Virus record (IMG/VR): IMGVR_UViG_3300017708_003205
Span: 1 to 25,551 of that record
Origin: a virus
Length of the DNA stretch: 25,551 nucleotides
Reading direction: 5' to 3' (one strand)
Below, piece after piece: positions 4,805 through 25,551 of this stretch (position 1 is the first letter of the stretch; the number at the start of each line of letters is the position of its first letter). The translations under genes were made by a program, and so were the position numbers. The notes under the pieces were generated by a model. The model made no database searches, was not told the DNA's origin, and saw only the letters and a list, made by a program, of their open reading frames with translations.

Positions 4805-4890
4805 GCCTGAGTGCCGGAATCGGTAGACGGATCGGACTTAAAATCCGCTGACTTGTAAAAGTCGTGCGAGTTCAAGTCTCGCCTTAGGCA
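4805..4890 (+). tRNA. tRNA-Leu, anticodon UAA
   Basis: An 86-base class II tRNA. The acceptor stem GCCTGAG (4805-4811) pairs with CTTAGGC (4883-4889) through one G-T wobble, and A4890 is the discriminator. The D stem is CCG/CGG with GG at 4822-4823. The anticodon loop CTTAAAA (4837-4843) shows anticodon TAA at 4839-4841; its stem has four good pairs and one mismatch at the base. The long variable arm pairs GACT with AGTC (4850-4863), typical of leucine, and the T arm is GCGAG-TTCAAGT-CTCGC (4866-4882). CCA is not encoded. There is no intron. It would read UUA codons, which are frequent in several window genes. Confidence 0.95.
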
Positions 4891-12083: not shown

Positions 12084-13246
12084 TAGGCTTGCTCCATTGC
12101 TTTAGTGAATCCTTCAGCTACTCGTTCCCAGGAGTATGAAGGATTTTGGGTAACTTCAAAGCAATCGTCAGCTACTTTTTTGCGATAATCTTTATCTTCA
12201 TAAACTTTATTAAGAAGTTCTGCAGCATGTTTATAGTCAATAATTCCTCGCTCAACACCGAGATCTTTATCAGTAATCCACGCAGCTACATCAATCAGCA
12301 AACCTTTACCCTGCCAGACATCTTTGCAGGAGGTGTGATTCGGAACGATTTGAGGTTTTCGACAAAGAGCATGTTCAAAAGGAACTAAACCCCATCCCTC
12401 ACCATTGGCCGTATTGATTCCGACGTCCACGGAGTTATAAATAAGATTGAGCTGCTCATCAGGTGGAGCGCCCATGTAGTTCATGTTTGGTGTCAAAGCC
12501 AGTTTCTGCGTGGGATCGTTTCCTCTTCGACGCATCTCAGTTTCAAAAAGCTCTTTTACCGCCCACCCGAGATCCTTTTCTCCCATGTGCAAGTACAACA
12601 TGACGTCGTCTTTACCCGTGGCAAACTCAGCAAATGCTTTGATTGTTAGGTCAATATTCTTTCTAGGTTGATTTCTATTGCCGTTAAATACTACGAATTT
12701 GTCTAGAGGAATACCAAGTTTTTTACGAGTTTCCAGCATGTCCAGCTCATGAAACTTTCCTTGATCAAGCCCATGAGGAATTACACCTAATTTTTGAGGT
12801 TGGATTCCGTGAGCCATTAGCCTTTGGGCTTGCTCGATAGTAAACGTAATAGCAAAGTCAAAGTCTTTGATGAACCTCAACATCGAGAGGGGGTACCACT
12901 CAGAATCTGTAGGGAAGTAGCCAATAAATTTAAACTTGAGTTGATGTTTGAGGAGGTGAATACGCTCCCAAACTTGATTGACGATCCAAATATCGTTAAG
13001 GCAAATAAACCAATCTGGACGTTCGTTTTCGACGATTGACTGGATTCTCCCTAGACCAAAACGATCGGCCGGATTGTGCGGAGCAGCAGGGTATATTTTG
13101 AAAGGGTACGGATGAGGATCTCCTGTGTAGTTAATGCCATATACGACTACTTCGTTGGTTTTCGATAAATGCTCGAGAATACTGTGAGTTACTCGTGCAA
13201 ATCCTGTATTTGAAACCGCATCTCCGTACCACAGAATCTTTGCCAT
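12083..13246 (-). CDS. GT4-family glycosyltransferase
   Basis: 387 residues, a full-length GT-B enzyme. The N-terminal domain opens with AKILWYGDAVSNTGFARVTH (2-21), where the glycine-rich loop meets the acceptor. The C-terminal donor domain has VIPHGLD (155-161), NGNRNQPRKNIDLTIKAFAE (188-207) with the phosphate-binding R195-K196, and the E283-x7-E291 motif (EGWGLVPFE). It uses a nucleotide sugar with retention of configuration, as for mannosyl- and glucosyltransferases of this family. First gene of a two-gene minus-strand operon with the GH130-like gene, so both may act on the same, possibly mannose-type, glycan (inference). The shared promoter box is 22 bases upstream. Confidence 0.92.
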   Translation of the reverse strand: MAKILWYGDAVSNTGFARVTHSILEHLSKTNEVVVYGINYTGDPHPYPFKIYPAAPHNPADRFGLGRIQSIVENERPDWFICLNDIWIVNQVWERIHLLKHQLKFKFIGYFPTDSEWYPLSMLRFIKDFDFAITFTIEQAQRLMAHGIQPQKLGVIPHGLDQGKFHELDMLETRKKLGIPLDKFVVFNGNRNQPRKNIDLTIKAFAEFATGKDDVMLYLHMGEKDLGWAVKELFETEMRRRGNDPTQKLALTPNMNYMGAPPDEQLNLIYNSVDVGINTANGEGWGLVPFEHALCRKPQIVPNHTSCKDVWQGKGLLIDVAAWITDKDLGVERGIIDYKHAAELLNKVYEDKDYRKKVADDCFEVTQNPSYSWERVAEGFTKAMEQA

Positions 13247-13290: not shown

Positions 13291-14811
13291 ATGCCTAGCA
13301 GGGAAACATTCGCATATCGCCGGGCTTTAAAACTACGTGCTCAAAAAGCCTTAGAGACTGAAGACACAACAATCGATAATGTATTCTCTCGTGCACAGAC
13401 TGATTTCTTAACCTTCTGCACTCTTTTAGATAAACCTCCAGCCAGACATATGCTGGAGTGGCATAGAGAGCTCATAACCGGAGAGAGCAATAAGTACCTT
13501 ATAGATATCGCGGGTCCGAACTTAGATATTCTGAGCCCTCGTGGTTCAGCCAAAAGCACTGTACTTAACCTGTTTACTGCTTGGGTTATCGGCAGGCACA
13601 CTCAGGCTGGTAGACCTCTTCAGATTATTTATTGCTCATACAACATCGCGACAGCTATTCCCAAAAGTCGAATTATTAAACAAATTATCGATTCATCGAC
13701 TTTCAAAAAAATATTTCCAAAAGTTAAGTTAAAAGCTGGGATGCAGAGCGACATAGGCTGGTCTGTCGACTTTGATTATGCGGGCATCACTCGTATTGGT
13801 GACGAGGAATTTACCTTAAGAGCAGCTGGTCTGAGAGGTTCGATTACGTCTAAACGAGCTCACCTCGTGATCGTGGATGACCCTATTAAATCAAGTACCG
13901 ATATTAAAAATCCTACTGTTCGCGAGGAGATGAACGGTAACTGGTCATCGGTCATTGCTCCCATCGTGTTTGAGGGAGGTCGATCTATCTGTCTAGGAAC
14001 TCGTTTTCACCCTTTGGATATACATAAAACAATGTTTATCCCGCAGAAGGGCTGGAAACAAGTCTCACAGGAAGCACTCACGTACAACAAAGACGGAGAA
14101 GCGGTTAGTTATTGGCCTGAGCAGTGGTCTGTCGAATATCTGCAAGGCCAAAAAGAACTGGATCCTGTTGCTTTTGCTTACCAGTATCAGCAACAACCTG
14201 TAATGACCTCAGATCTCGTCCTTTCTCCTGACTTAATTGTTAAAGGAGAAGTCGAAACTGAGTTCGATTCCTTGGCTGTAGGGATCGATCTATCCGCCAG
14301 CAAGAACGAGACTTCTGATTACACCGCTTTTGTCCTCGGTGGGAGACTCGGAGACAAATACTATGTCATTGATGCACATCAGGTGCGGACCATCGGCAAC
14401 CTTGAAAAGATTGACTTGCTGTGCGATATGTTAGTTGAGTGGGGAATCTTAGAACTACAGAACGATCAACATTTCCCGACGTATTCCACAGTGACCCTCG
14501 TTGTTGAAGCCGTGGCTTACCAGGCTTCTCTTGCGGCTGATCTCCGTCGTGTTTTGTTAAACGAAAGAGGTCTGGGTAATTTGCATGTCCACGAAGTCAA
14601 AGGATTCAGGGGAGACAAAGTCGCGAGGTTTAGAGGTACTCTCGGTCTTTTGGAAAATAAAAAAGTTATTTTTAACAAATACAGAAAGTTTGATGCTCTT
14701 ATAGATCAGCTAATTAACGTAGGGGCGACGTCTCATGATGACCTTCTTGACGCTTACACTTGGCTCATGACTTATCTTCAACGTCGCGGAAACTTCTCTG
14801 TTGAGTTCTAA
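13291..14811 (+). CDS. terL: Terminase large subunit
   Basis: 506 residues, usual length for the family. The ATPase domain has Walker A PRGSAKST (83-90), Walker B LVIVDDP (192-198) and the coupling motif LGTRFH (235-240). The C-terminal RNase H-like nuclease shows AVGIDLS with D333, VVEAVAY with E406 and HDDLLDAY with D483/D484. The enzyme cuts concatemeric DNA and drives it through the portal into the procapsid. The ATG at 13291 has no clear ribosome binding site. The stop overlaps the start of the next glycosyltransferase (TAATG). Packaging strategy (cos or headful) cannot be told from this. Confidence 0.95.
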   Translation: MPSRETFAYRRALKLRAQKALETEDTTIDNVFSRAQTDFLTFCTLLDKPPARHMLEWHRELITGESNKYLIDIAGPNLDILSPRGSAKSTVLNLFTAWVIGRHTQAGRPLQIIYCSYNIATAIPKSRIIKQIIDSSTFKKIFPKVKLKAGMQSDIGWSVDFDYAGITRIGDEEFTLRAAGLRGSITSKRAHLVIVDDPIKSSTDIKNPTVREEMNGNWSSVIAPIVFEGGRSICLGTRFHPLDIHKTMFIPQKGWKQVSQEALTYNKDGEAVSYWPEQWSVEYLQGQKELDPVAFAYQYQQQPVMTSDLVLSPDLIVKGEVETEFDSLAVGIDLSASKNETSDYTAFVLGGRLGDKYYVIDAHQVRTIGNLEKIDLLCDMLVEWGILELQNDQHFPTYSTVTLVVEAVAYQASLAADLRRVLLNERGLGNLHVHEVKGFRGDKVARFRGTLGLLENKKVIFNKYRKFDALIDQLINVGATSHDDLLDAYTWLMTYLQRRGNFSVEF

Positions 14812-15683
14812 TGTCTTCTATTTACATCTCTGTCACAGCTTACAATCCACTTAGCCGCATTGAGACTCTTCTTGAAGTTTTAAAGGGTTACGAAACTCTT
14901 GATTTGGATAAAGAAATTGATATTACGATCGATCACGAACATGCTTATGACCTAGATGAGTTCTCATTAATAGTTGCCGGTAACACTAACTTAAAACGCG
15001 TAAGTTTTACTGTAGCGTCTCCAGAGTATGTAGGTTACTCACTTTGCTGGGCACACAAACCGTCTCTAGCTTACCAAGTTTTAAATAAAAAACATGATTA
15101 TTACATGTATTCAGAAAATGATATTCTTTTTACTAAGAGACAATTTGATTACTGGATCGAATATAAAGATGTTTTAAAAAAAGAAAACCTAGAACCAGGT
15201 TTTTGTCGAGTCGAGAAAGTAAAAGATAAATTTATTCCTTTTGACAATTACCGTCGCTGGAATTTGAGTGGTGTTACCCCAGATGTTTGGGGACCAATCG
15301 GCTACAACTGCGGTTTTAAATTCCGTCCGGCTGAGTCCGGTGTGATTGGTTTTACAACACTCGGTAACCCATATGGTGGTTTTATGATCATGGATCAAGA
15401 AGACTCTGAGGAGTACATTCGCTCAGACAGCAGTCACCCTGTAAAAAGTCACGCAAAAATTGGCTTAAGAAACTGGCCGATCGCTGATCGATCTTCAATG
15501 GGTTTGGCTTTTGAAAAACTGCTCCCAGGGCAAGAACATCGCCGAGCTATTCCCCTGATAAACGAAAATGGAAAAATTAAAATCCCTGAGTGTGCCTTAG
15601 TTCAGCACTTGGATAATAAGTACTCCTCTGCACTTTTGAAAAACTCTCCTATGATCGACACAGATACTATGTTTACATACTGA
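14811..15683 (+). CDS. GT-A-type glycosyltransferase-like protein
   Basis: 290 residues, start overlapping the terminase stop. The N-terminus IYISVTAYNPLSRIETLLEV (4-23) resembles the nucleotide-binding strand and helix of GT-A enzymes. YYMYSENDILFTKRQFDYW (97-115) supplies an acidic END in place of DxD. Later blocks (WGPIGYNCGFKFRP, GNPYGGFMIMDQED) could form the acceptor site. No signal or membrane segment. Its tight coupling to the terminase gene means it is expressed with the packaging machinery, which would fit virion glycosylation. Specificity unknown. Confidence 0.7.
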   Translation: MSSIYISVTAYNPLSRIETLLEVLKGYETLDLDKEIDITIDHEHAYDLDEFSLIVAGNTNLKRVSFTVASPEYVGYSLCWAHKPSLAYQVLNKKHDYYMYSENDILFTKRQFDYWIEYKDVLKKENLEPGFCRVEKVKDKFIPFDNYRRWNLSGVTPDVWGPIGYNCGFKFRPAESGVIGFTTLGNPYGGFMIMDQEDSEEYIRSDSSHPVKSHAKIGLRNWPIADRSSMGLAFEKLLPGQEHRRAIPLINENGKIKIPECALVQHLDNKYSSALLKNSPMIDTDTMFTY

Positions 15684-15684
15684 C

Positions 15685-15975
15685 ATGTTCTCTTACTCCG
15701 ATGACACCATCACCCTGGGAGGTATCGAGTTTGACATGGCTATGCCAAGTATTTTTCCCGGCAGCACTGTGGATCACCCCAGTCACTACAACCAAGGTGA
15801 TGTCGAGTGCATTGACGCAATGCTCGCTGCAGCTGGAAAAGATGCTGTACAAAACTTTTGTCACCTCTCTTGCATAAAGTATCTCTGGCGCTTCCAACAC
15901 AAGAACGGAGTTGAAGATTTAAAAAAAGCTGATTGGTACCTAAAAAAGCTTATTGAGCTGAATAAGTTAGACTGA
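15685..15975 (+). CDS. DUF3310 protein
   Basis: 96 residues, ATG 15685, one base after the preceding stop. Residues 28-93 carry the domain: VDHPSHYNQGDVECIDAM, then CHLSCIKYLWRFQHKNGVED and LKKADWYLKKLIEL. HPSHY near the start and KYLWR-x3-KNG-x-EDLKKA are the family signature. DUF3310 is widespread in phages and has been described as nucleotide-kinase-like, but its activity is not established. The first 27 residues are a variable extension. Confidence 0.9.
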   Translation: MFSYSDDTITLGGIEFDMAMPSIFPGSTVDHPSHYNQGDVECIDAMLAAAGKDAVQNFCHLSCIKYLWRFQHKNGVEDLKKADWYLKKLIELNKLD

Positions 15976-15991
15976 CAGAAAGAATTCACAA

Positions 15992-16279
15992 ATGGACATC
16001 CGCGCTTTCGGATCTGTATACGGGCAGACGCCCATACTGCCTTACGCAAGTGGGTTTGTTTGGGTGCCTTCGGACGGTCAAAAAACTTTTCCTACCTGTC
16101 GTTCTTTATTCGTCGAATCAAAAAGTACTCCTGGGACAGATGACGTTTATGTACGTCTAAACGACATGGGAGAAAATCAATTTATACATATCGAAAATGT
16201 TGATGGCAATATCGAGTTGCCTTTTGGAGCAGTTACACTAAGTGGAGGTTCTGTGAACGGCGTAGTCGTCCTTTACTAA
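15992..16279 (+). CDS. Small beta-rich unknown protein
   Basis: 95 residues, ATG 15992, with a weak AGAAAG 10 bases upstream. The sequence alternates polar and hydrophobic residues (VYVRLNDMGENQFIHIENVD, GAVTLSGGSVNGVVVLY), as in a small beta-sandwich such as a head decoration or fibre knob. This is inference from pattern; no family was recognised. It ends seven bases before the membrane protein gene at 16287. Confidence 0.6.
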   Translation: MDIRAFGSVYGQTPILPYASGFVWVPSDGQKTFPTCRSLFVESKSTPGTDDVYVRLNDMGENQFIHIENVDGNIELPFGAVTLSGGSVNGVVVLY

Positions 16280-16286
16280 TAGGACT

Positions 16287-16853
16287 ATGAATTTATTCAA
16301 ATGGACTGCATTAGGAGTTGGTAGTCTTGTTGCTGTAGCACACATTGGTGTGCTGGGGCACATTATTAAAGCAACAAAAACTCCGCAAGCTCCAGTTATA
16401 AATTTTCCCAGAGGAGATTATTCCTCTTACAAAGTTAAAGCAGATAAAGAAGGTTATACGGTCGAATATAAAGCGAATGATCCTACTGTTCTTGAGTCAC
16501 AAAAATCTTTATCGGTAGATAAAGAAAAGAAAGGATTTTTTGGTAGTGGTAGTGAAAATCGTCACGAGTGGCGCAAAGATCAATTCACTATGGATGGCAC
16601 CAGGAACCTAGGAGGTGCCACGGCAGATGGCGAGGGAAAGTCTGCAAAAGACATACAGTGCATCGTGGCGGACGCTGGAGCACGGTCACAAGGTGCAATG
16701 GCCGGAACTAGTATTGCTGCTGGGGTTGGTGTTCCTGCTGTTATCGGTATCCCGTATGTTGGGTGGCTAGCTGCTGGATGGGTTTCACTTTTAGGCGGAA
16801 AATTAGGTTCTGCTGCTGGATCTACCGTTGGTAGCATAGTTAATGACTGCTAA
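16287..16853 (+). CDS. Membrane protein with N-terminal anchor and C-terminal glycine zipper
   Basis: 188 residues. Residues 6-28 (WTALGVGSLVAVAHIGVLGH) form a transmembrane helix or uncleaved signal. The middle 90 residues are polar and charged. Residues 134-185 are a glycine/alanine-rich hydrophobic stretch (AGTSIAAGVGVPAVIGIPYV, WLAAGWVSLLGGKLGSAAGS), as in glycine-zipper hairpins. Two membrane regions separated by a soluble domain would suit envelope interaction during lysis, exclusion or DNA entry. No family recognised. A single cysteine ends the protein. Confidence 0.65.
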   Translation: MNLFKWTALGVGSLVAVAHIGVLGHIIKATKTPQAPVINFPRGDYSSYKVKADKEGYTVEYKANDPTVLESQKSLSVDKEKKGFFGSGSENRHEWRKDQFTMDGTRNLGGATADGEGKSAKDIQCIVADAGARSQGAMAGTSIAAGVGVPAVIGIPYVGWLAAGWVSLLGGKLGSAAGSTVGSIVNDC

Positions 16854-16859
16854 ATAAAG

Positions 16860-17153
16860 ATGAGTTTTACTGGTTACTCCGATATTTTTGCTGATCGTTA
16901 CGGACGGTCTATTGCTGCCGCTGATAATCAAAGGCGTCGCGATCAAGAATCCACACAGCAATTCGCTGGGCAAGTTCAGTCAGACTTAAATCAAGAAGCC
17001 GGTGGCCCTGTTCCGCCAACAATGCCGGACGATGGGAGTAACCCGCAGTTTGATACTGGTATGGACGAGGAAGTAAACGAAAACGTAGAACGCACTAAAA
17101 ATTACTTGCTAGAAGTATCTAAAAAACGCTTGAACCAAGTAGCAGACGTCTAA
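16860..17153 (+). CDS. Small polar unknown protein
   Basis: 97 residues, ATG 16860, six bases after the preceding stop. Polar, rich in Gln, Asp and Asn (NQRRRDQESTQQFAGQVQSD), with a central proline/glycine linker and a C-terminal charged helix (NENVERTKNYLLEVSKKRLN). No membrane segment. It may form a helical assembly protein. Not recognised. Confidence 0.6.
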   Translation: MSFTGYSDIFADRYGRSIAAADNQRRRDQESTQQFAGQVQSDLNQEAGGPVPPTMPDDGSNPQFDTGMDEEVNENVERTKNYLLEVSKKRLNQVADV

Positions 17154-17160
17154 GACTGAG

Positions 17161-17175
17161 GTAGCATATTGCTAC
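17161..17175 (+). other. Small hairpin before the GT17-like gene
   Basis: GTAGCA (17161-17166) pairs with TGCTAC (17170-17175) around a TAT loop in the 37-base gap. No T-run follows directly, so it is not a typical terminator. It lies 15 bases before the GTG start and could influence initiation. Confidence 0.45.
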
Positions 17176-17190
17176 TCGAATCGTTCTTCT

Positions 17191-18003
17191 GTGCTGATCG
17201 ATTGCTTTCCTTATTTCAATGAAAAGGAGCTACTAGAACTTCGTATTAAAACTCTCTACGATCATGTAGATGGTTTCTTGATAACAGATGCTAATTATAC
17301 GCACAGAGGGGAACCTAAAGAATTTACTTGCGTTAATACTCTCAGAGAGCTCGGGATTCCCGAAGACAAAGTGCAAGTGCTCCACGTTGAGTTACCTACG
17401 TACGAAGAAGCACCAGACCCCTGGGTTAGAGAAAGAGGGCAGAGAGACGCTTTAAGTGTTGGTTTATTTCAGCTGCCAGGAGATACCTTTTTTATATGCT
17501 CCGATTGTGACGAAATAGCAAACCCGGAAAAGCTAGAAGAGGTAAAACAAGCTGTTTTAGATAACCCCGATAAGACAGTTCGTTTGAGTATGTCTATGCA
17601 CTACGGACGAGCTGATCGGCAGCTTCAGTCGCCACAAGAAGAAAAATTTGATTGGCGTTGCGGGGTAGTTAGTACGGTTGCTGGACTAAAGGAATTCGGA
17701 ACTCTTTCTTCTTTACGAGCTACAACGAATAATTATTACGTAGGCGAACGCGACGCAGGGTGGCATTTCAGCTGGATGGGCGATGCGGATAAACGACGAA
17801 CTAAGTTACGCTCCATCGCTGAGTATTACATCTGGGATAAACCTGAAGTACAGGAGTTGTGTGACGAATTCAAACCTGAAGAAGGCAACACAGACATGCT
17901 TGGTCGTCAGGATCATTTGTTGACTTCGTATCCAGTGGATAAACTTCCTGAAGGTGCCCTTAGAATAGAAAGAGTTAGAAAATACCTTTTACCTGATGGC
18001 TGA
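17191..18003 (+). CDS. GT17-like glycosyltransferase
   Basis: 270 residues from GTG 17191. The N-terminus LIDCFPYFNEKELLELRIKT (2-21) followed by VDGFLITDANYTHRGEPKEF (26-45) is the recognisable start of the GT17 family, whose eukaryotic members add bisecting GlcNAc. SDCDEI (104-109) provides the DxD metal site, and GWHFSWMG (190-197) matches the conserved GWH block. GT17-like proteins also occur in bacteria and large viruses with unknown acceptors; GlcNAc transfer here is only inferred from the family. No membrane anchor is seen. The 3' end overlaps the next small gene by eight bases. Confidence 0.85.
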   Translation: MLIDCFPYFNEKELLELRIKTLYDHVDGFLITDANYTHRGEPKEFTCVNTLRELGIPEDKVQVLHVELPTYEEAPDPWVRERGQRDALSVGLFQLPGDTFFICSDCDEIANPEKLEEVKQAVLDNPDKTVRLSMSMHYGRADRQLQSPQEEKFDWRCGVVSTVAGLKEFGTLSSLRATTNNYYVGERDAGWHFSWMGDADKRRTKLRSIAEYYIWDKPEVQELCDEFKPEEGNTDMLGRQDHLLTSYPVDKLPEGALRIERVRKYLLPDG

Positions 18004-18139
18004 CAAAATGCCTGCGGAGGTTTTGGCTAAGTTCCAAAAGGATCGCGACGAAAAAAAGGCTCCTAGTGGTGACGAGGTTAAGATGGAAAAACAGAAACGG
18101 GCTAAAGAAAAAGCTCGTTCCTTCAAAGAAAAGAAGTAA
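17996..18139 (+). CDS. 47-residue lysine-rich protein
   Basis: ATG 17996, overlapping the GT17-like gene by eight bases; stop TAA 18137-18139, eight bases before the portal ATG. The start reads MADKMPAEVLAKFQKDRDEK; the rest is lysine-rich and helical (VKMEKQKRAKEKARSFKEKK). It fills the gap exactly and continues the tight gene packing, which supports a real gene. A nucleic-acid-binding or assembly role is possible. A second lysine-rich mini-protein lies at 20903-21037. Confidence 0.6.
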   Translation: MADKMPAEVLAKFQKDRDEKKAPSGDEVKMEKQKRAKEKARSFKEKK

Positions 18140-18147
18140 TTTTTTAA

Positions 18148-20367
18148 ATGGCAGCCTCACTTGACACGCGAAATAAGTTCGAGGAGATCTTAGAGGCTGC
18201 TCGGACTCAAGGTCGCCAGAACCAAGCTGCAACCATGGTGGTGCTAAGCCACTTGCAGCAGATGACCCTCTTGATGATCAAAAAGGGGATCTCTTTTTAC
18301 TGCGATCAAGACACTTTGAAAAGCAGAACAAGGTTTCTGCACGATGTAATCGAGTTAAATCGGCTTGATATTCGTTTTCCAGCGATTATCAGAAATTTTC
18401 TAATCGACGGTTGTGGCCTGTTTTACTTCCGCCCAGATCAGAAACTAAAATATCAGATCTATTTCTTTAACAAGAACCAATATCGGGTCTTTCACGATCT
18501 GAATGGTCAAATTGAAGAAGTCGTAATTATTTACGATTACAAAGTAAAGAACGCCACCCTTGGTCTTCCGAGCGATGTCTACGGACAAAACAAACGGTAT
18601 GTCCGACTTTCGATTACAGCTGAGACAATCAGCGAAGTTGAGTCTGACTCAGAACTAAGTTTTGAAGTAGAACCAGGCCCAGGTATCAACGGCACTAAAG
18701 TTCGCCCAAATTCTCTAGGTTTTGTGCCCGCTGTCGAATGCTTAAACAAACCTAACGCCAGCGGCACAGAAGGAGAAGGTGATTTTGATCCGTTTATGGA
18801 GCAAATTGTGCTTCATAACGAGATGATCACAAACATCTCAAAGAATATTGAATTTTTCGGTAACCCTACTCTGATCTCCAGTCGACCACGGTCTGACCTG
18901 GTCGAAGCTGCTGATGCCGGAAGTGCTTTCCGTCCAACAATCAGCTCTCAGAGTGGGTTTGCGGGAAGAGATTCTCCTTCAACACGCGTTAGTGAACCAT
19001 TCGGTTCAGCGATGGGAGGTGGCCTTCGTGTACCTCGCATCATCGCTAACGTCGAGCCCTCAGATCGTGTCGGCTACATGACGCCTGACCCGATTAGCGG
19101 TGACATGAACCGTTATGTTCTGTTGCTTAGAGAAGAAATCCGTACTGCTTTAGGTGGTGTGGATGAAATTTCGATCTCGGCGGGCGCTACTGCGACAGAA
19201 ATTAAAGGTTTGATGGGTCGTGCTCAAGCCACGGCTCTTCGAAAAAACAAAAGTTTCCTTACTTACGGTTTTTGTCGTCTCTTAGAGATGATGATTTACC
19301 ACCAGGAAATGATTTTCCGTGAGTCGTTTATCGCGGCCTCGGGATTAAAGGAACCTAAAGAACCAACCGAAATAACCGAAGATTCAACTGAAAAGTATCA
19401 GAAAGCTTTACGTCGTTTTGACATGAAGCTCGACGAAGAAATTAAAAAAGCCTTAGAAAAAAACAAAGTCCCTCGCGGCGTTATTGGTTTACCAGAAGAT
19501 GGAGACCGTAGCGTTTCATATCGCTTCATGGGCGATGTGTACGAGGATACGGCCTTTGACTTACAGCAAAAGTCAATCGTTGTAAGGAACATGCAAGAGG
19601 TTGGTGTTAATAGTGTTGAAGCTATTAAGTACCTATTCCCGGATAAGACTGAAGCCGAGCGTGCCGAAATGTTGAAAGGATTCCCTTTCAGAATGGTTGG
19701 ACAAACACAGTCGGCAATGCAGCAATTCCTGGTATTATTAAATCAGATGTATCAGTCTCCGCATCCTCTTGCGCCTGATCAACCCCTTGCGGCTGATCCT
19801 AGACTGAATATCACACCGCTCCTTTACAGGACGTTTGATCACCTTGCGGAAGAATTAACTTACTCGGGTAGCTATGAGCCAGCAGATCCAAGCTTCGACC
19901 CCGAGCCCGGTGTCCCCGGCGGCAGCCCCGGCGGTATACAACGACCAGGGCTCAACAACCGCCTTCCCGCAGTGGGTGGCACAAACGTCTACCCCGGCGG
20001 TAGCTTCGGTGCCTACAGCCCAAGCGCCACAGCAGGTGGCACCGGTTTCGGACCCTTCTATCAACGCCCCGTCCAGCCCGTCAACGTCGCAATCCTCCCC
20101 GAGCAACCCTTGGGAAGCAGCGATGGGGTCCCTGGAACGAGTGTTGGGCCAGATTCCATCCCCCAGCCAGGCAGCACCATCACAGACCCTGGAAACACTG
20201 CAGGGTACAACACAGCTGAGTCAGCCTTCACAGGTCCAGCCTTGGGCCTACCAGCAGCAGGCTCCGCAGACATCGCCTACCAGCGCCTCACCGACCCAAA
20301 CTTCCTCGCAGGCTTCTACGGAAACCAGCAACGGGGAACTCAGCGCCGCAAGCGTCGAGGTAATTAA
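18148..20367 (+). CDS. Portal protein
   Basis: 739 residues, ATG 18148. The N-terminal half has alternating strand and helix segments with aromatic residues (FLIDGCGLFYFRPDQKLKYQ). The middle, about residues 325-380, has LREEIRTALGGVDEISISAG followed by a helix (IKGLMGRAQATALRKNKSFL), the layout of portal stem and wing domains. Position after terminase and before scaffold and capsid genes agrees with portal. The protein is long compared with common portals of about 500 residues. From about residue 576 it becomes a glycine/proline-rich tail (GGSPGGIQRPGLNNRLPAVG) ending in RRKRRGN, and this part is encoded by the 494 bases that also encode the N-terminus of the scaffold-like gene in the +1 frame. 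Confidence 0.8.
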   Translation: MAASLDTRNKFEEILEAARTQGRQNQAATMVVLSHLQQMTLLMIKKGISFYCDQDTLKSRTRFLHDVIELNRLDIRFPAIIRNFLIDGCGLFYFRPDQKLKYQIYFFNKNQYRVFHDLNGQIEEVVIIYDYKVKNATLGLPSDVYGQNKRYVRLSITAETISEVESDSELSFEVEPGPGINGTKVRPNSLGFVPAVECLNKPNASGTEGEGDFDPFMEQIVLHNEMITNISKNIEFFGNPTLISSRPRSDLVEAADAGSAFRPTISSQSGFAGRDSPSTRVSEPFGSAMGGGLRVPRIIANVEPSDRVGYMTPDPISGDMNRYVLLLREEIRTALGGVDEISISAGATATEIKGLMGRAQATALRKNKSFLTYGFCRLLEMMIYHQEMIFRESFIAASGLKEPKEPTEITEDSTEKYQKALRRFDMKLDEEIKKALEKNKVPRGVIGLPEDGDRSVSYRFMGDVYEDTAFDLQQKSIVVRNMQEVGVNSVEAIKYLFPDKTEAERAEMLKGFPFRMVGQTQSAMQQFLVLLNQMYQSPHPLAPDQPLAADPRLNITPLLYRTFDHLAEELTYSGSYEPADPSFDPEPGVPGGSPGGIQRPGLNNRLPAVGGTNVYPGGSFGAYSPSATAGGTGFGPFYQRPVQPVNVAILPEQPLGSSDGVPGTSVGPDSIPQPGSTITDPGNTAGYNTAESAFTGPALGLPAAGSADIAYQRLTDPNFLAGFYGNQQRGTQRRKRRGN

Positions 20368-20785
20368 ACAGTTTGGCGTTGAAGCTCCTGGAATTCTGAA
20401 TTCTTATGCTTGCGCTTTGGAGGACATGCTCCTTCAGCAGGCACAAAAGACCGATCAAATCACCGAGAGAGCCGGTGGTATGGAGCAAATCCTTACCAAC
20501 CCTGACTTCTTGGCTGATTACACTGATCGTTTCTTTACTGAAGTGGTTCCTGTTGACATCGATAGCGATGTTCAAACTCAGGCTCCTCAGCAGTATCAGC
20601 AGAACTACGACATGCCTGCTCCTCCGGCTGCAACTGCCGGTCAACAGCAAGCTGCTCAACCACAGCAGCAGTGGGATGCCTTCGGCGACGCTATGAATCG
20701 TTCACCTGAGAATGCTTGGCGTCATCTCGCACATATGAGCCCTGAAGCTCTGCGTTCAAAGCTCCTATTTATGGAAGCTTCTTGA
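19874..20785 (+). CDS. Scaffold-like head assembly protein overlapping portal
   Basis: 303 residues from ATG 19874, in the +1 frame relative to the portal gene. The first about 164 residues are Pro/Ser/Gln/Thr/Ala-rich and disordered (ASTPSPVSPAAAPAVYNDQG) and are wholly embedded in the portal gene. Residues 165-303 lie outside it: a helix (ASVEVIKQFGVEAPGILNSY, then ALEDMLLQQAQKTDQITERA), a Gln-rich linker and a terminal helical pair (SPENAWRHLAHMSPEALRSK). A disordered N-terminus with a helical capsid-binding C-terminus and a place between portal and capsid fit a scaffold. An internal initiation site just after the portal core would allow coupled expression. The family was not proven. Confidence 0.7.
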   Translation: MSQQIQASTPSPVSPAAAPAVYNDQGSTTAFPQWVAQTSTPAVASVPTAQAPQQVAPVSDPSINAPSSPSTSQSSPSNPWEAAMGSLERVLGQIPSPSQAAPSQTLETLQGTTQLSQPSQVQPWAYQQQAPQTSPTSASPTQTSSQASTETSNGELSAASVEVIKQFGVEAPGILNSYACALEDMLLQQAQKTDQITERAGGMEQILTNPDFLADYTDRFFTEVVPVDIDSDVQTQAPQQYQQNYDMPAPPAATAGQQQAAQPQQQWDAFGDAMNRSPENAWRHLAHMSPEALRSKLLFMEAS

Positions 20786-20794
20786 CTTAAAGAT

Positions 20795-20828
20795 TAAACC
20801 CTGTAACTTTATTAAGTGGAAGGGTTTA
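20795..20828 (+). other. 8-bp hairpin before the terminator
   Basis: TAAACCCT (20795-20802) is perfectly complementary to AGGGTTTA (20821-20828) with an 18-base loop. It sits between the scaffold-like stop and the terminator hairpin; two stacked hairpins may protect the 3' end of the mRNA. Confidence 0.55.
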
Positions 20829-20844
20829 GGGGCTCTGCCCAGGG

Positions 20845-20873
20845 AAAGACTCCTCGAAAGGGGGGTCTTTTTT
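20845..20873 (+). terminator. Rho-independent terminator after portal/scaffold
   Basis: AAAGACTCC (20845-20853) pairs with GGGGTCTTT (20862-20870) with one T-G pair, loop TCGAAAGG, followed by a T-run ending at 20873. It is 59 bases after the scaffold-like stop and would separate the packaging and portal transcript from the capsid region. Confidence 0.85.
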
Positions 20874-20902
20874 CTGCTATCTTGATAAAAAAGAAGCTAA
20901 TT

Positions 20903-21037
20903 ATGAAGTCTTTACAAGCTAGTGGTCGAGATAAGAGCAAAGGGAAGGATAAAAAACCTCGTGTAGGGGCATCTCCAGGCCCAGCCAAAAAAACTGCGGC
21001 TGAACAAGAGGGATTTGACGAAAATGTTCAACTCTGA
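20903..21037 (+). CDS. 44-residue basic protein
   Basis: ATG 20903 is preferred over an upstream GTG at 20816, because the longer frame would run through the terminator. The protein is basic and low-complexity (ASGRDKSKGKDKKPRVGASP) with an acidic C-terminus (EQEGFDENVQL). AGAAG nine bases upstream is a weak ribosome binding site. It lies just after the terminator, so it begins a new transcript. Possibly a disordered assembly or nucleic-acid-binding peptide; not recognised. Confidence 0.5.
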   Translation: MKSLQASGRDKSKGKDKKPRVGASPGPAKKTAAEQEGFDENVQL

Positions 21038-21067
21038 TTCTCTTTAGTCACTATTTTTGTCAGATTT

Positions 21068-21328
21068 ATGTTGCGTAGTCTTTTTTCGCTAGTTTTTGCC
21101 GCTGTTTTGTGGGTTCAAGTACCTCAGTGGGAGGCCGATTGGTCAAAATGTGCTGTTGATGTACCCGATGTCAGCTGTCATTGGTACGTAGTCGCGCCAG
21201 ATAACACTTTTGGCACAGGTTTTGACTGGGCAACCGCACCATGGTTTGACGTAAACGGTTTGCAAGACGTGAGCAAGCTAAGAAACACGATGCAAGTAAT
21301 TCATCAAGAATCTTTGTCCGTTAACTGA
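21068..21328 (+). CDS. Small exported or membrane-anchored protein
   Basis: 86 residues, ATG 21068. Residues 2-19 (LRSLFSLVFAAVLWVQVP) form a basic-then-hydrophobic signal peptide or anchor. The rest is aromatic-rich with two cysteines (WSKCAVDVPDVSCHWYV) that could form a disulfide outside the cytoplasm. Its 3' end overlaps the convergent holin-like gene by 25 bases. The exported topology beside a holin candidate suggests a lysis or envelope role, which is inference. Confidence 0.6.
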   Translation: MLRSLFSLVFAAVLWVQVPQWEADWSKCAVDVPDVSCHWYVVAPDNTFGTGFDWATAPWFDVNGLQDVSKLRNTMQVIHQESLSVN

Positions 21329-21639
21329 AGATCTTTTTTTGATCTCTCTTTGATTTTGTGAAGCACACTAACTTCAAGGGTGTTCAGTATCTTTATACCG
21401 GCGTAACCACCTACAAAAGCCACTGCAACAGATTCTGATTTGGTTAATTTCATGCGCTCAGCTACCGCAGGGCTGACAAAGGTCGCAAGTAACCAGCCGA
21501 CAGATAATGCTCTTAAAAAATGCGTTATAAACTCTCGCTTACTTCGCGGGTTGACTAAAGCTTCAGTCACGGTACCTGCAATAGAGCTACCTGCTATACC
21601 AGCATCAACTGCCATCATAGATGCGACTTTCTCAAGCAT
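21304..21639 (-). CDS. Holin-like membrane protein
   Basis: 111 residues. Three hydrophobic segments can be traced: about 9-27 (MAVDAGIAGSSIAGTVTEAL), 40-58 (HFLRALSVGWLLATFVSPAV) and 68-90 (SESVAVAFVGGYAGIKILNT), and the C-terminus is strongly charged (HKIKERSKKDLQLTDKDS). Size, three helices and charged tail fit a class I-type holin, which forms the membrane pore for lysis. No endolysin is seen in the window. It is alone on the minus strand, with a looser copy of the shared promoter box 45 bases upstream. Confidence 0.65.
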   Translation of the reverse strand: MLEKVASMMAVDAGIAGSSIAGTVTEALVNPRSKREFITHFLRALSVGWLLATFVSPAVAERMKLTKSESVAVAFVGGYAGIKILNTLEVSVLHKIKERSKKDLQLTDKDS

Positions 21640-21684
21640 CTGTCTCTTAAGTATTAACGCTATATGAATCTTAATCAGGCTTAG

Positions 21685-21697
21685 AGTATAAAAAAAG
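21685..21697 (-). promoter_or_regulatory. Looser copy of the minus-strand promoter box
   Basis: The minus strand reads CTTTTTTTATACT then CT. TATACT and the initial C, T, T, T of CTGTT-N2-TATACT are kept, with one base difference (G to T). It lies 45 bases before the holin-like ATG, further than in the other three cases, and falls in a T-rich run, so the match is weaker. Confidence 0.35.
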
Positions 21698-21705
21698 CTC
21701 GTTAA

Positions 21706-22533
21706 ATGACTTTTGCTGCTCTTACAAACTGGAAATACGATAAATCGTTATATCACAACATCCAGTCAGGGCCTCAGCGGACTGCATCTAATTTAAATCT
21801 CACAGATACTTACTTACTGACGTCAAGTGGGTACGTTTACGCAAGTGGGGAGCAGCAAACCTTTGTCGCTTTGCACGATCAAGGAGCCAACTTCGGAATA
21901 GTCACTCCAGGGCCTCCAAATAGTTCTGGTTACTTCACTAATGACTGGCGAGCTGTGCCCACAGCCGTGTCAGGCTACTGGACAGATTATCAAAACACTT
22001 ATCCTCACTCATCGGGACTTTTAACTGTTTACAACGGATTTAGACGTCAAGGTCTAATTAACACTGCTAACAGCACTGTACAAACTGCCTTTGGACCTGA
22101 ACCTGGTCTAAAAGACATCGGACCTTACATTTCCTACGGAAGAAACCTTCCGGATAACCAACTTTATGGTCCGTTTGAGACACCTGAAGGAAATACAGCA
22201 GCGCAAGGTAGTACAGGTGGACCTGTCGCTTACCCTCTCTCGCAATTCCCTCTTTTAACTAACCCAACACAAGGCGTAACCGGGTCTAGGGCTGATTGGG
22301 TTTATAACACTCCTGTGTACTGCAAGGTGTGGACAGAATCGACGACGTCAAGAGTTCCTCCAGGCGAAACAGCTGACAATACGAATCCAATCGTAAGAGG
22401 TAGTTATAGAGGTAGATCTTCTCGGTATGTTCCAAACTATGGTGGAATCTACGGAGTACTAGGAGAAGGTGTAAGGGGCATGATCCGCACCTTTAGTTCT
22501 ACAGTTAATAGTTCTAACCAAAAAGGTATTTAA
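21706..22533 (+). CDS. Unknown structural protein candidate
   Basis: 275 residues, ATG 21706. It is rich in Gly, Ser, Thr, Asn and Tyr with beta-type patterning (NLTDTYLLTSSGYVYASGEQ, SGYWTDYQNTYPHSSG) and has no charged coiled coil, signal or membrane helix. Proline/glycine turns are frequent (TPGPPNSSGYF). Its position between the scaffold-like and capsid genes and the composition suggest a virion surface or head-completion protein. Not recognised. Codon use is AT-richer than in the two genes that follow. Confidence 0.65.
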   Translation: MTFAALTNWKYDKSLYHNIQSGPQRTASNLNLTDTYLLTSSGYVYASGEQQTFVALHDQGANFGIVTPGPPNSSGYFTNDWRAVPTAVSGYWTDYQNTYPHSSGLLTVYNGFRRQGLINTANSTVQTAFGPEPGLKDIGPYISYGRNLPDNQLYGPFETPEGNTAAQGSTGGPVAYPLSQFPLLTNPTQGVTGSRADWVYNTPVYCKVWTESTTSRVPPGETADNTNPIVRGSYRGRSSRYVPNYGGIYGVLGEGVRGMIRTFSSTVNSSNQKGI

Positions 22534-22551
22534 CGCTAAAAACGAGACGTC

Positions 22552-22569
22552 AGCTATGTAGACATAGTT
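22552..22569 (+). promoter_or_regulatory. Hairpin in the capsid gene leader
   Basis: AGCTATG (22552-22558) pairs with CATAGTT (22563-22569) through one G-T wobble around a four-base loop, 46 bases before the capsid ATG. TTGATA follows at 22568-22573 and might act as a -35 box, but no convincing -10 at correct spacing was found. No T-tract, so not a terminator. Confidence 0.4.
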
Positions 22570-22615
22570 GATAAAAGGCTAAGATTATTTTGTAGTTTCT
22601 TGTGGACACTTATCG

Positions 22616-23731
22616 ATGTTTATCGATAATGATTTCCCCAAGATTCTTGGTGCGGAACTGTATCGTCCCCATCCTGCTTATATCGTTGAAATGGCTGCCG
22701 AACCGGTGGTCGTTCATGATTTTTCTAAGCAGCCTGGTCAGACTGTTCAGCTCGATCGTTATCGTTTCTTCGGTAACCCAGGCTCCAAGGAATCTCGGGA
22801 ACGTACTGCAGAGCAGACCATTGGTACTGCTAACAGCCGTAACATCGTCAAGGACAAAGTCCTGGTGACTCTTAAGGAGTACACCGGACCTGCGGACCCT
22901 AACGATCCAACTCAGCCTTCTACTTTCAAGATTGCTCGGGAAACCCTTATCACTGCGCAGCGACTGCTGCTTGATACAGGCAACCTGACCACCTTCCATC
23001 AGTCAATCGGCAGTCTGACCCTGCTCGATGACTATCGTCGGTGGCGCGATCGGGTGTTCATTAATGAACTCCTTAAAGCTGTTTCTAAGGGACAAAGTTC
23101 TGATTCCCAGGGTGGTTATTACTTCCCAGGTGATCTAGCAACTGGTGCCCTTACCTACACCAACGCCGAACAAGCTAAGTTCGACGTCAAGGACGACCTC
23201 CTCCGTGTGGTCAAGTCCCTCCGTAAGCGCAACACGCCGACCTACCAGGACGGTTTCTATCGCTGCGTTTGCGATCCTACATTCCTGATGCACCTGCGTC
23301 AGAACTCTGACTTCCGTGAGGTCGCTCGTTACCCAGGTAACGGACAGATCAACCCGCTGATGTCGGCTATGCAGCCGAACGCCAGCATCTACATGGGTCA
23401 GGGCTTCGGCCAAGCTACGTTTGTGGCTGGCGAACCGATCATGCCAACTGGCTTCGTCTTTGAAGGCGTGCGATTCTTCGAATCCACCAACATGCCTTCC
23501 CAGACCCAGAGTGCAACGATCGCAGGTGCGACTGCAGATACCAAGGCTGCCATCGGCATGTTCTTCGGTCCTCAGTCTGTTGGTGTGGGCATCGGCGGTA
23601 ACAACGCTCAGGTGCTTCTCAACAACAATGACGACTTCAGCCGTTTCATCATGATGATTTGGAGCCTCTATGCAGGTTTCGAACTTCTGAACGCTGATTT
23701 CGCCACAATTGCTTACTCCTTTGACGCCTGA
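22616..23731 (+). CDS. Major capsid protein
   Basis: 371 residues, ATG 22616, no clear ribosome binding site. The N-terminal arm (KILGAELYRPHPAYIVEMAA) leads into a beta-rich region (HDFSKQPGQTVQLDRYRFFG); the core has helix LLDDYRRWRDRVFINELLKA and then YRCVCDPTFLMHLRQNSDFR, a pattern reminiscent of N4 gp56-type HK97-fold capsid proteins. The end (SLYAGFELLNADFATIAYSF) returns to strand. Position after portal and scaffold, length and codon use support the assignment. Codons are C-ended and GC-rich (35 of 60 bases G or C in 23221-23280), unlike most of the window, as expected for a very abundant protein. Two cysteines occur (YRCVCD). Confidence 0.8.
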   Translation: MFIDNDFPKILGAELYRPHPAYIVEMAAEPVVVHDFSKQPGQTVQLDRYRFFGNPGSKESRERTAEQTIGTANSRNIVKDKVLVTLKEYTGPADPNDPTQPSTFKIARETLITAQRLLLDTGNLTTFHQSIGSLTLLDDYRRWRDRVFINELLKAVSKGQSSDSQGGYYFPGDLATGALTYTNAEQAKFDVKDDLLRVVKSLRKRNTPTYQDGFYRCVCDPTFLMHLRQNSDFREVARYPGNGQINPLMSAMQPNASIYMGQGFGQATFVAGEPIMPTGFVFEGVRFFESTNMPSQTQSATIAGATADTKAAIGMFFGPQSVGVGIGGNNAQVLLNNNDDFSRFIMMIWSLYAGFELLNADFATIAYSFDA

Positions 23732-23736
23732 GGAGG
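23731..23736 (+). promoter_or_regulatory. Strong Shine-Dalgarno AGGAGG
   Basis: AGGAGG begins at the last base of the capsid stop codon and lies ten bases before GTG 23747. It is the best ribosome binding site seen in the window and fixes the start of the next gene. Confidence 0.85.
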
Positions 23737-23746
23737 AAATTAAACA

Positions 23747-24613
23747 GTGATTAACGCTAATCAGTTACACGTTGCCAAGATTTATCCTGGTAACTACACG
23801 AATGTTCTTCGTTACTGGCACGAAGTAAAATCCATTGCATCTCAGAATGCAAATGGTGTTGACACGACCATGACGGGTCAGCCCGTTGGTGGTCCTGTCG
23901 GTGTTGTGTTCCAGCCTGGCTGGATTGCACAGCAGGCAGTTGGTTATGTCGACATGAGCTACCAAGCTCTTGGCACTAACAACCAGCTTGCCTACTATGC
24001 GCAACCTTATGGCTCAGGTCAGAACGCTTCTCAGCAGCCTTTCCTGAACGCCAACGTTATCGTTCCTTCACCCGACTTCCACAAAGATGTCCGGGCTGAC
24101 ATTACCGATGGCATTAAAGTCCCTGCAACAGCCTACGTTTATCGCGCTTCTCTGCGCCTTAGCGGTGGCGACATCGTTAGCAGCGGCGTTGCTGGATCTG
24201 ATTCTACTCCTGAACTAACCCTCGTTCCCGCTGTGGGCGAAGGTCTTAAGGATGACGGCACTGTCGTCTCCGGTCAGTTCGGTGCAACCATTACTGGTGC
24301 TAACAGCGCTATCGCTAACGGTAGTGTTGCTTCCACGAACATCTTCGACTCCAGCAGCTGGGCTGCTTTGGGTTCTGAGACTACTTGGAAATTGTTCACC
24401 ACTAATGATCAGAGTGCTTCTGGTCTTTACCAAGGCTCAGGTGTCTATGACCCCCGTGCCGGTGTCAACAAGTTGGCTGGTGATGACAAGGCTCTCGCTA
24501 TCTGCGAAGTCTGCTGGATCATTCCTGATGAGCCGCCCGAGCGCCAGGACGTTGCTCTGCAACCCGATGGCCTCACCGAATCTCAGGTGTACACCTCCAC
24601 TTCTCCTTCCTGA
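23747..24613 (+). CDS. Abundant structural protein candidate, decoration- or tail-type
   Basis: 288 residues from GTG 23747, fixed by AGGAGG. The sequence is beta-rich with many Gly, Ser, Thr and Asn (GGPVGVVFQPGWIAQQAVGY, GSGQNASQQPFLNANVIVPS) and several turns, without membrane segments or coiled coils. Codon use matches the capsid gene (C-ended, GC-rich), implying high expression. It directly follows the capsid gene and precedes a strong terminator, so it is probably a capsid-associated decoration or major tail/neck protein. A frame shifted by one base also stays open (24252-24695), which I treat as a shadow. Confidence 0.7.
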   Translation: MINANQLHVAKIYPGNYTNVLRYWHEVKSIASQNANGVDTTMTGQPVGGPVGVVFQPGWIAQQAVGYVDMSYQALGTNNQLAYYAQPYGSGQNASQQPFLNANVIVPSPDFHKDVRADITDGIKVPATAYVYRASLRLSGGDIVSSGVAGSDSTPELTLVPAVGEGLKDDGTVVSGQFGATITGANSAIANGSVASTNIFDSSSWAALGSETTWKLFTTNDQSASGLYQGSGVYDPRAGVNKLAGDDKALAICEVCWIIPDEPPERQDVALQPDGLTESQVYTSTSPS

Positions 24614-24634
24614 TATACTCAGCAAGCGAGGACC

Positions 24635-24667
24635 AAAGACCTTTCCTTCGGGAAGGGTCTTTTTTTT
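24635..24667 (+). terminator. Strong rho-independent terminator after the capsid operon
   Basis: AAAGACCTTTCC (24635-24646) pairs with GGAAGGGTCTTT (24651-24662), 12 base pairs with one T-G pair around a TTCG tetraloop, then a T-run to 24667. It ends the capsid transcript 22 bases after the stop of the preceding gene. Confidence 0.95.
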
Positions 24668-24738
24668 GTCTTTAATCAAATATATTTATTTCTAAATTAT
24701 TTACGTAACTAAAATATGAGTAGCAAACGAATAGCACT

Positions 24739-25029
24739 ATGTCTGATCTCACAGATCAAATGATTAAGTGCAGGCAGTGTGAGAAGTGCGGTGCTAAGTG
24801 GATAAACGATCAGCTTTACTGGGCAACAGGCAAAAAAGGAAAGAACGATGATTTGGCAGGTTTAGTTTGCAACACGGTCAATTCACCGGAGTGCATTAAC
24901 CCTGAAAAGGGCTCAGAAACTGGAGATACCTGGGAGAAAAGACTAGGCAAGCTAAAGCAGCTCTCCACGGTAATGGAGAAGGAATACGATATTAAGTGGG
25001 ATTCAGGAAGCTCAGGTTCAGATTTTTAG
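24739..25029 (+). CDS. Cysteine-containing small protein, possible zinc binder
   Basis: 96 residues, ATG 24739. CRQCEKCGAKW (11-21) has two CxxC pairs; VCNTVNSPECINPEKG (43-58) gives two further cysteines, so a four-cysteine zinc site could form. The C-terminal part is charged and ends in a disordered SSGSSGSDF-type tail. The frame is preceded by AT-rich sequence with TAAAAT (24711-24716) as a possible -10. Its stop overlaps the convergent gene by four bases. No known domain recognised. Confidence 0.6.
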   Translation: MSDLTDQMIKCRQCEKCGAKWINDQLYWATGKKGKNDDLAGLVCNTVNSPECINPEKGSETGDTWEKRLGKLKQLSTVMEKEYDIKWDSGSSGSDF

Positions 25030-25499
25030 AAACCAGAAGAACTCATAGGAATCATTAAGCCACCAGCTCTAGGGATTCTTGATTGAACTCTTCCCTGAGC
25101 TTCCATAGCGTCGGTAAGTATCTGCTTAGTTTCAGGGTGATCTCCGCCGTAAGCCGCTAAACGAAGATAGTTTTCGACATTAAACAACGGAGCAGAATCT
25201 AAAGCATCTTGAATTTCTCTAGGTCCTCGGGGCCAATCGTTTTGTTTAGCTATTTGGTTATATAACTCGACTGCAAACGGAACTAAATCAGCTCCACCTG
25301 AAAAAAGTGATGCTGCAATACCACCACCTCCCACAATCGCTGCGTTTTTGAACCTTTGCACTGGATCAGGTTCAGGTGAGTTGAGTTCAAAACCAATAGC
25401 TTGTGCGTCTGCTGCGCCAGCAAGTTTCTTAAGTGGAGTGTCGTAGTTAGACGCTATTTTCTTAACAAACTCGCCTGCTACTCTTTTAAGTGGTGACAT
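25026..25499 (-). CDS. Unknown protein with glycine-rich hydrophobic segment
   Basis: 157 residues on the minus strand. An N-terminal basic helix (LKRVAGEFVKKIASN) is followed by a short glycine/alanine-rich hydrophobic stretch (NAAIVGGGGIAASLFSGGAD, about 52-71) and a helical domain with FNVENYLRLAAYGGDHPETK. The composition recalls the glycine-zipper proteins elsewhere in the window. The 52 bases upstream that are visible show no copy of the CTGTT-N2-YATACT box. Not recognised. Confidence 0.6.
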   Translation of the reverse strand: MSPLKRVAGEFVKKIASNYDTPLKKLAGAADAQAIGFELNSPEPDPVQRFKNAAIVGGGGIAASLFSGGADLVPFAVELYNQIAKQNDWPRGPREIQDALDSAPLFNVENYLRLAAYGGDHPETKQILTDAMEAQGRVQSRIPRAGGLMIPMSSSGF

Positions 25500-25551
25500 A
25501 GTTTTTGTCCGATGGCACTATTTTAATCGATACTGGTTTAAGCTACTGCTC

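Follow-up and report, generated by a model that had tools for sequence, protein, structure and literature searches.

Can a single stretch of DNA serve two genes of a tailed phage for almost 500 bases? The question is raised by a viral sequence of 25,551 nt, the whole of which is called the window here (IMG/VR record IMGVR_UViG_3300017708_003205, positions 1 to 25,551), in which the end of a portal gene also carries, one base out of phase, the beginning of a scaffold-like gene. Comparison with several hundred relatives points to a long-lived dual-coding overlap in S-EIV1-like cyanophages, one message being read from two starts, a reading to which we give a probability of roughly 80%. The elements concerned are as follows.

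18148..20367, plus strand: portal gene, 739 aa (phrog_20475, phrog_64; AlphaFold2 model compared with solved portals)
19874..20785, plus strand: scaffold-like gene, 303 aa, frame +1, homologue of a protein partly annotated as AHV82225.1 in S-EIV1
19874..20367, plus strand: probable dual-coding overlap, 494 nt, scaffold-like residues 1-164 (homologue conservation and selection tests)

An initial annotation, made from the DNA alone, had described this arrangement, and a check of the open reading frames (ORFs) reproduced its coordinates, its phase (+1) and the 494 nt in common. The sharp rise in GC that it had reported was exact (41/60 in 19921-19980, 25/60 in 19681-19740). GC reaches 63% across the entire overlap, and it exceeds that of both flanks in every representative (60/60, 84/84 and 22/22) of three groups of relatives, sorted by start context and identity: the window's group (W), the S-EIV1 group (E) and a third group (O). 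Composition counts agree with its description of the two products as non-random sequences of low complexity, the portal tail being Gly/Pro-rich (G 18%, P 14%, A 9%) and the scaffold-like arm Pro/Ser/Gln/Thr-rich (S 19%, Q 15%, A 14%, P 13%, T 10%). Its remark on scaffold-frame codons ending in G was also correct, since 63 of 164 have G as third base, 17 of them being CCG or GCG. These third bases take G because it is required by codons for Gly, Ala, Asp and Val in the portal; conversely, portal third bases take C (83/164 codons within the overlap vs 136/575 in the portal core), the base required by Pro, Ser, Thr and Ala codons in the scaffold frame.

The source virus is an S-EIV1-like cyanophage. 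Among 50,697 phage records, Synechococcus phage S-EIV1 (printed S-EIVl) was the sole relative found, with a portal identity of 43.0% over 91% of the query. In the S-EIV1 isolate genome the overlap is 554 nt long, and the second frame runs for 325 residues, starting at an ATG with AAAAGGAG before it.

Conservation of the two frames among relatives

Relatives were collected in several ways. In the 80 loci nearest the window (the best 80 of 246), the second ORF lies in the same phase, with an overlap of 488-512 nt wherever the portal stop is reached (78 loci). The phase is again the same in the 80 loci nearest S-EIV1 (the best 80 of at least 598 relatives), where the overlap is 554-641 nt in the 79 reaching that stop. 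Two pattern scans, which involved no ranking by similarity and returned at least 120 stretches each, gave 166 further loci, with a portal hit in 165 and the portal stop reached in 130. Finally, a profile scan led by a fourth group (the best 80 of at least 594 relatives) yielded 72 loci out of 80 in which the portal stop is reached.

Pooled with the window and S-EIV1, these sets comprise 361 loci, which reduce to 300 distinct portal ends down to ~43% portal identity. The +1 frame is open across the portal stop in 297 of the 300, for 446-680 nt (median 527), while in 204 of the 300 the +2 frame there stays open for less than 50 nt. In 296 of these 297, a start codon occurs at most 22 codons into the open +1 stretch (ATG comes first in 265, GTG in 31); for the selection tests and the start-codon table, the start was set at the first ATG of that stretch. 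The three exceptions are a locus whose portal frame is broken early and whose true end was not examined (L174), one whose stop lies 9 nt from the contig end (L251) and one in which both frames shift together inside the overlap, a pattern in which mutation and assembly error are indistinguishable (L299). Homologues that break one frame while keeping the other had been named as the observation that would speak against the overlap; 297 of the 300 distinct homologues break neither. An assembly artefact is unlikely, because contigs L001-L003 are near-identical (99-100%) and the same arrangement occurs in the S-EIV1 isolate genome.

Between groups W and E, the identity is 0.29 for the portal tail and 0.33 for the scaffold-like arm, as compared to 0.47 for the portal core and 0.38 for the C-terminal part of the scaffold-like protein. 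All groups sampled have both frames, so the overlap predates the split of these groups. In deepest-group loci including L355, L371, L375, L377 and L309, the second gene is apparently GTG-started, a few codons past an upstream stop.

Selection on the two frames

Selection was estimated with our own site count, following the OLGenie idea as outlined in PMC7531306, in non-overlapping sister pairs and with the effect on the other frame held constant. The loci with a broken frame (L174, L251 and L299) and the GTG-started L309 were dropped, as were incomplete ends, sequences with N, those with less than 900 nt of upstream portal and near-duplicates. Groups W, E and O thus went from 98, 125 and 22 loci to 60, 84 and 22 representatives and to 28, 40 and 11 pairs; two deeper groups went from 34 and 31 loci to 26 and 29 representatives and to 11 and 12 pairs.

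The selection ratios in W were 0.233 (0.173-0.313) for the portal frame and 0.288 (0.205-0.398) for the scaffold frame. The corresponding values were 0.592 (0.437-0.785) and 0.249 (0.191-0.314) in E, 0.508 (0.396-0.633) and 0.327 (0.253-0.417) in O, 0.52 (0.42-0.63) and 0.38 (0.29-0.48) in the first deeper group, and 0.54 (0.43-0.68) and 0.37 (0.29-0.47) in the second. As a control in W and E, a fake second frame outside the overlap gave 0.76-0.79 for the scaffold frame and 1.45-1.49 for the portal frame. The estimator is not centred on 1, and the value of an unconstrained frame depends on the transition fraction: in simulations with only one frame constrained, at the observed transition fraction of 44-49%, the unconstrained frame came to 0.86-0.91. 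Judged from these sequence comparisons, purifying selection on the scaffold frame appears firm in all five groups, as does that on the portal frame in W. Outside W, selection on the portal frame appears weaker and its strength depends on the transition rate assumed. The per-frame selection check proposed at the outset pointed to constraint on both frames in the window's own group.

The suppression of synonymous change expected of such an overlap was likewise found in W, where third-position divergence falls inside the overlap in both frames: from 0.354 upstream to 0.117 in the overlap for the portal frame, and to 0.101 in the overlap from 0.370 downstream for the scaffold frame. Moreover, constraint alternates along the alignment in W when measured in 30-codon windows. 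Columns 60-90 gave 0.10 for the portal and 0.26 for the scaffold frame, columns 80-110, over a conserved helix of the scaffold-like protein, 1.30 and 0.09, and columns 140-170, 0.10 and 0.20.

Competing explanations

Several results weigh against the dual-coding reading. From the window sequence alone, the open second frame is suggestive, with P of 0.015-0.09 from the portal side: the +1 frame is stop-free in 9.0% of synonymous shuffles, 1.5% of codon-usage redraws and 8.0% of codon permutations, and the reciprocal test on scaffold codons gave 5.1% and 0.0%. The portal ratio outside W (0.51-0.59) is below the 0.86-0.91 null and is not clearly separable from a null of 0.65-0.67, the value of a free portal frame in one-frame simulations with 60% transitions (0.78-0.84 for a free scaffold frame). 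The internal start in the window's group lacks a Shine-Dalgarno sequence. Searches of Pfam, PHROG and PDB sequences gave no informative match that would indicate similarity of the second protein to a known scaffold, and in L315 this protein (363 aa) is basic (pI 9.4), the sole exception among 166 representatives. Translation of both frames within the overlap is itself something that we infer.

The alternative that survives best accepts the overlap and concerns the identity of the second protein, which may be another head-assembly protein or an internal head protein rather than a procapsid scaffold. The features used to weigh it are listed here.

20345..20782, plus strand: helical C-terminal part of the second protein, residues 158-303 (predicted helices), mostly beyond the overlap
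20108..20146, plus strand: scaffold-frame island, helix 79-91, NPWEAAMGSLERV region (predicted helix, conserved residues, selection window)
22616..23731, plus strand: major capsid protein gene (phrog_1357, E 3e-21)

This alternative draws on the lack of any match to a known scaffold by family, profile or fold: known scaffold families gave no informative match, and VIA-align of the model of this protein returned no row with Z of at least 2, the model being mostly of low confidence (mean pLDDT 46.7). Moreover, in relatives the capsid gene, although downstream, is not directly next, the median distance from the end of the scaffold-like gene being 1481 nt (122 tblastn hits). On the other side, the order of portal, this gene and major capsid protein gene is that of T7, P22 and P-SSP7, and the length of 303 aa compares with 307 in T7 and 303 in P22, as taken from coordinates. 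The pI of the protein is acidic (group means 4.1-4.4), and the C-terminus is predicted to be helical with a terminal helix cluster. In the model, residues 1-155 are mostly below pLDDT 50, save around helix 79-91 (pLDDT ~55), where P79 and A83 are invariant and N78 and L91 are conserved in at least 90% of 38 sequences; predicted helices follow at 158-220 (pLDDT ~50-54) and 263-299 (~66-81), the helical part thus beginning near the end of the overlap (residue 164). Gene order, acidity and predicted helices together lead us to infer a procapsid scaffold, and the labels 'scaffold' and 'essential', both used by the initial annotation, are plausible. A different head protein is a possibility to be taken seriously, if the less probable one; the name 'scaffold-like' is kept because no homology to a known scaffold turned up.

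A second explanation is that the scaffold frame alone is functional and that the portal tail is passive read-through without a selected function, its Pro/Ser/Ala-rich, GC-rich codons seldom giving stops. Here the portal protein itself has to be considered.

18148..19872, plus strand: portal residues 1-575, single-frame folded core (predicted elements up to helix 556-572)
19873..20364, plus strand: portal residues 576-739, Gly/Pro-rich tail (pLDDT and composition)
20161..20175, plus strand: portal-frame island PxPGS, portal residues 672-676 (alignment of 41 portals)
20320..20364, plus strand: last 15 portal residues, forming a basic C-terminus (net charge over 166 representatives)

For the 739-aa protein the strong match is to phrog_20475 (virion structural protein, E 9e-166); weaker matches are to two portal families, phrog_64 (portal, E 2.4e-07) and phrog_104. 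An AlphaFold2 model built from 41 sequences (mean pLDDT 53.8) had solved portals as top rows in both Foldseek and VIA-align (best Z 17.2, rmsd 4.6, 274 residues aligned), so that a portal fold is supported for the model, chiefly over residues 9-493, which the VIA-align rows cover. Its last predicted core helix (556-572, low confidence) stands directly before the start of the overlap at residue 576, and residues 559-739 have pLDDT below 50, except for a short helix at 708-715. The scaffold-only explanation is favoured by the portal ratio in E, O and the deeper groups, which is not clearly below the 60%-transition null, and by the occurrence of windows with a portal ratio above 1. It is opposed by the low portal ratio in W and by features of the tail kept across groups: islands that include P585, P672, P674-S676, G705 and D708 (P672 invariant; P674, G675 and S676 in at least 90% of the 41 portals), and a basic C-terminus whose last 15 residues have a mean net charge of 5.35, 5.60 and 4.95 in three groups, with a minimum of 3 over the 166 representatives. 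Moreover, a frame simulated as untranslated acquired a stop in 66-89% of sister copies, and yet the portal frame is open in the real loci. That frames are open in the sister pairs is a consequence of the ORF delimitation; the count that matters is the 297 of 300 given above, and, set against the simulated stops, it lends further support to constraint on the portal frame. We therefore regard a functionless tail as improbable.

Thirdly, the second protein might begin past the portal stop, as in the GenBank record of S-EIV1, with the arm left untranslated. That record gives AHV82225.1 as the last 134 of the 325 residues of the second protein, and S-EIV1 does have an in-frame ATG at that place. 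The start proposed here lies upstream.

19856..19879, plus strand: conserved internal start region of the second gene (context before ATG)

Among E representatives, 88% have the ATG of the GenBank annotation, and in W and O no start at the corresponding place exceeds 50%; indeed, no downstream start codon is common to all representatives of W, E and O. The scaffold-frame ratios over the overlap (0.25-0.38 in the five groups) are also at odds with an untranslated arm. Upstream, the strong AAAAGGAG-ATG is present in 80/80 E loci and AAAAGGAGATGAG before the internal ATG is identical in 80/80 loci fetched by S-EIV1 portal similarity, and in W the context before ATG is TCGGGTAGCT in 76/80 nearest loci and TCCGGTAGCT in 4/80, counts that come from loci fetched by protein similarity, W and E having been sorted by context. 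Elsewhere, portal codons vary at synonymous sites. Concerning the missing Shine-Dalgarno sequence in W, only 1 of 12 window starts inspected, that at 23747, pairs strongly with the anti-Shine-Dalgarno, so that starts lacking this signal seem usual in this virus. A hairpin at the internal start gave no clear signal, accessibility being 0.47, 0.46 and 0.54 vs 0.43, 0.40 and 0.40 at random portal positions. We consider a start past the portal stop very improbable.

An in-frame ATG at codon 84 of the second ORF (~20123) is found in 97% of the 60 W representatives and is not kept elsewhere; it could give a shorter second form.

Least credible of all is that an RNA or DNA signal, such as a packaging site or a regulatory RNA, lies behind the synonymous suppression in place of a second protein: synonymous-site conservation is indeed strong and highest around the internal start, but the pattern tracks codon phase and switches frame from block to block, indels preserve both frames, the fold z is -0.38, there is a single imperfect direct repeat, and Rfam gave no family at gathering score on the overlap (three weak sub-threshold matches), so that an RNA element was rejected for want of support from fold, Rfam or repeats. 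A chance ORF, which the window sequence alone leaves standing, is ruled out by the 297 of 300 homologues.

Origin, known parallels and neighbouring genes

In the dual-coding reading, ribosomes starting at 18148 would make the portal, and others, starting at 19874 inside the portal gene and reading in +1, would make the scaffold-like protein (303 residues, acidic, largely helical). In this way the 494 nt in common would encode a mostly disordered Gly/Pro-rich portal tail with a basic end cluster and, in the other frame, a mostly disordered Pro/Ser/Gln/Thr-rich arm carrying a short conserved helix. By analogy with known portals, the tail may lie in the procapsid interior among the scaffold; in P22, according to PMC12005531, the procapsid form of the portal has an unstructured C-terminal barrel, and scaffold touches portal. 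Contact would fit the charges, basic at the tail end and acidic in the partner. More speculatively, and in our estimation doubtful, the portal tail and the scaffold-like protein might bind each other in the procapsid and so start capsid assembly, as partners that recombination cannot part, the internal start helping to set the portal:scaffold ratio. If so, each phage's portal would nucleate its own scaffold, since both share one DNA stretch, and any interaction of the two segments would provide a case of genetically inseparable binding partners.

The initial annotation had ascribed the disordered arm of one of the two proteins to overprinting. A conserved out-of-frame overlap with signs of purifying selection on both readings supports its account of the locus; that a single arm arose in this way is a possibility only, as both arms are predicted to be mostly disordered and both occur in all the groups sampled. 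Codon usage identified no younger frame in W, E or O, the fit being about equally bad in the two frames (-0.224/-0.185 in W, -0.216/-0.235 in E, -0.350/-0.311 in O). The overlap may have arisen by extension of one gene end past the other, through loss of the portal stop or an upstream shift of the second start; simulations summarized in PMC3887535 have 3' extension of the upstream gene as twice as frequent in general, which serves as a prior and not as a test.

Overlapping genes are a known kind of arrangement, and this overlap is an unusually long, old and widespread variant. Long out-of-frame overlaps occur mostly in very small genomes. In phiX174, the internal scaffolding protein B is encoded wholly inside gene A, and in lambda an internal start within the upstream head gene C gives the scaffold Nu3, in the frame of C. 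The window's overlap shares the internal start with lambda and differs by one base in frame, so that a nested scaffold in the portal frame, of the Nu3 type, was ruled out by the +1 phase. As in phiX174, whose genes A and B overlap and whose gene E lies within D (PMC8227390), a capsid-assembly protein is encoded out of frame on the DNA of another phage gene; however, phiX174 is a small single-stranded DNA phage in which gene A is not a portal gene, whereas S-EIV1-like viruses are tailed phages with large double-stranded genomes (that of S-EIV1 has 79,178 bp) in which the portal and scaffold-like genes overlap at their ends. T7, P22 and P-SSP7 are alike in gene order, protein sizes and portal fold and lack a long overlap, portal and scaffold genes being separated by 99 nt in T7 and 13 nt in P22 and overlapping by 1 nt in P-SSP7. 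Ordinary same-strand +1 virus overlaps resemble the present one in strand and frame and are far shorter: a survey of 12,609 virus genomes gives a median of 14 nt for +1 overlaps (interquartile range 8-26; PMC8903798), and another survey gives 185 nt as the longest overlap shared across families (PMC7017920). The initial annotation had called so long an overlap between two essential assembly genes rare; by tailed-phage standards it is indeed very long, and no long portal/scaffold overlap was found in the literature searched, mostly outside subscription papers and the S-EIV1 description.

What distinguishes the locus is dual coding, if correctly read, over ~450-680 nt between two head-assembly genes of tailed phages, in five groups and hundreds of environmental contigs. 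These contigs form a large natural alignment of how two mostly disordered segments can share DNA, with constraint alternating between frames. There is also a correction to make in annotation: the S-EIV1 record holds 134 of the 325 residues, and pipelines that forbid long overlaps will shorten the second protein elsewhere. The S-EIV1 capsid gene was apparently missed in GenBank as well, a 385-codon open frame (L409; KJ410740.1, 60853-62010) with 69% identity to the window capsid protein being covered by an antisense coding sequence (CDS, 60784-61545) and a short sense CDS (61540-62010).

The portal gene stands in a packaging/head block, with terminase upstream and the major capsid gene downstream, and a candidate transcript end follows the second gene.

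13291..14811, plus strand: terminase large subunit gene (phrog_38, E 1.9e-76)
20842..20873, plus strand: terminator-like hairpin and T run after the second gene (z -2.75)

The terminator-like site is found in 53/57 W, 1/82 E and 14/22 O representatives and in 0/60 control stretches. Being common in W and rare in E, it suggests that a shared unit likely ends there in some groups only. Another strong terminator-like hairpin, of 12 pairs with a TTTTTGTC tail, lies at 24635-24662, after the gene that follows the capsid gene.

Two glycosyltransferase-like genes occur among the packaging/head genes, one at 12083-13246 on the minus strand (Glycos_transf_1, E 5e-11) and one at 17191-18003 on the plus strand (Glyco_transf_17, E 1.3e-12). 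In a near-identity DNA search, a patch of ~4% of the query alone was common to other cyanophages. The ORF at 16287-16853, which matches phrog_605 (E 5.5e-88), is ~76-80% identical at the DNA level to cyanophages including S-RIM12 and S-SM2, and the rest of 15000-25551 has no such cyanophage DNA match among the matches listed; a recent exchange of this ORF with cyanophages is possible. The window also carries a tRNA-Leu with anticodon TAA at 4805-4890.

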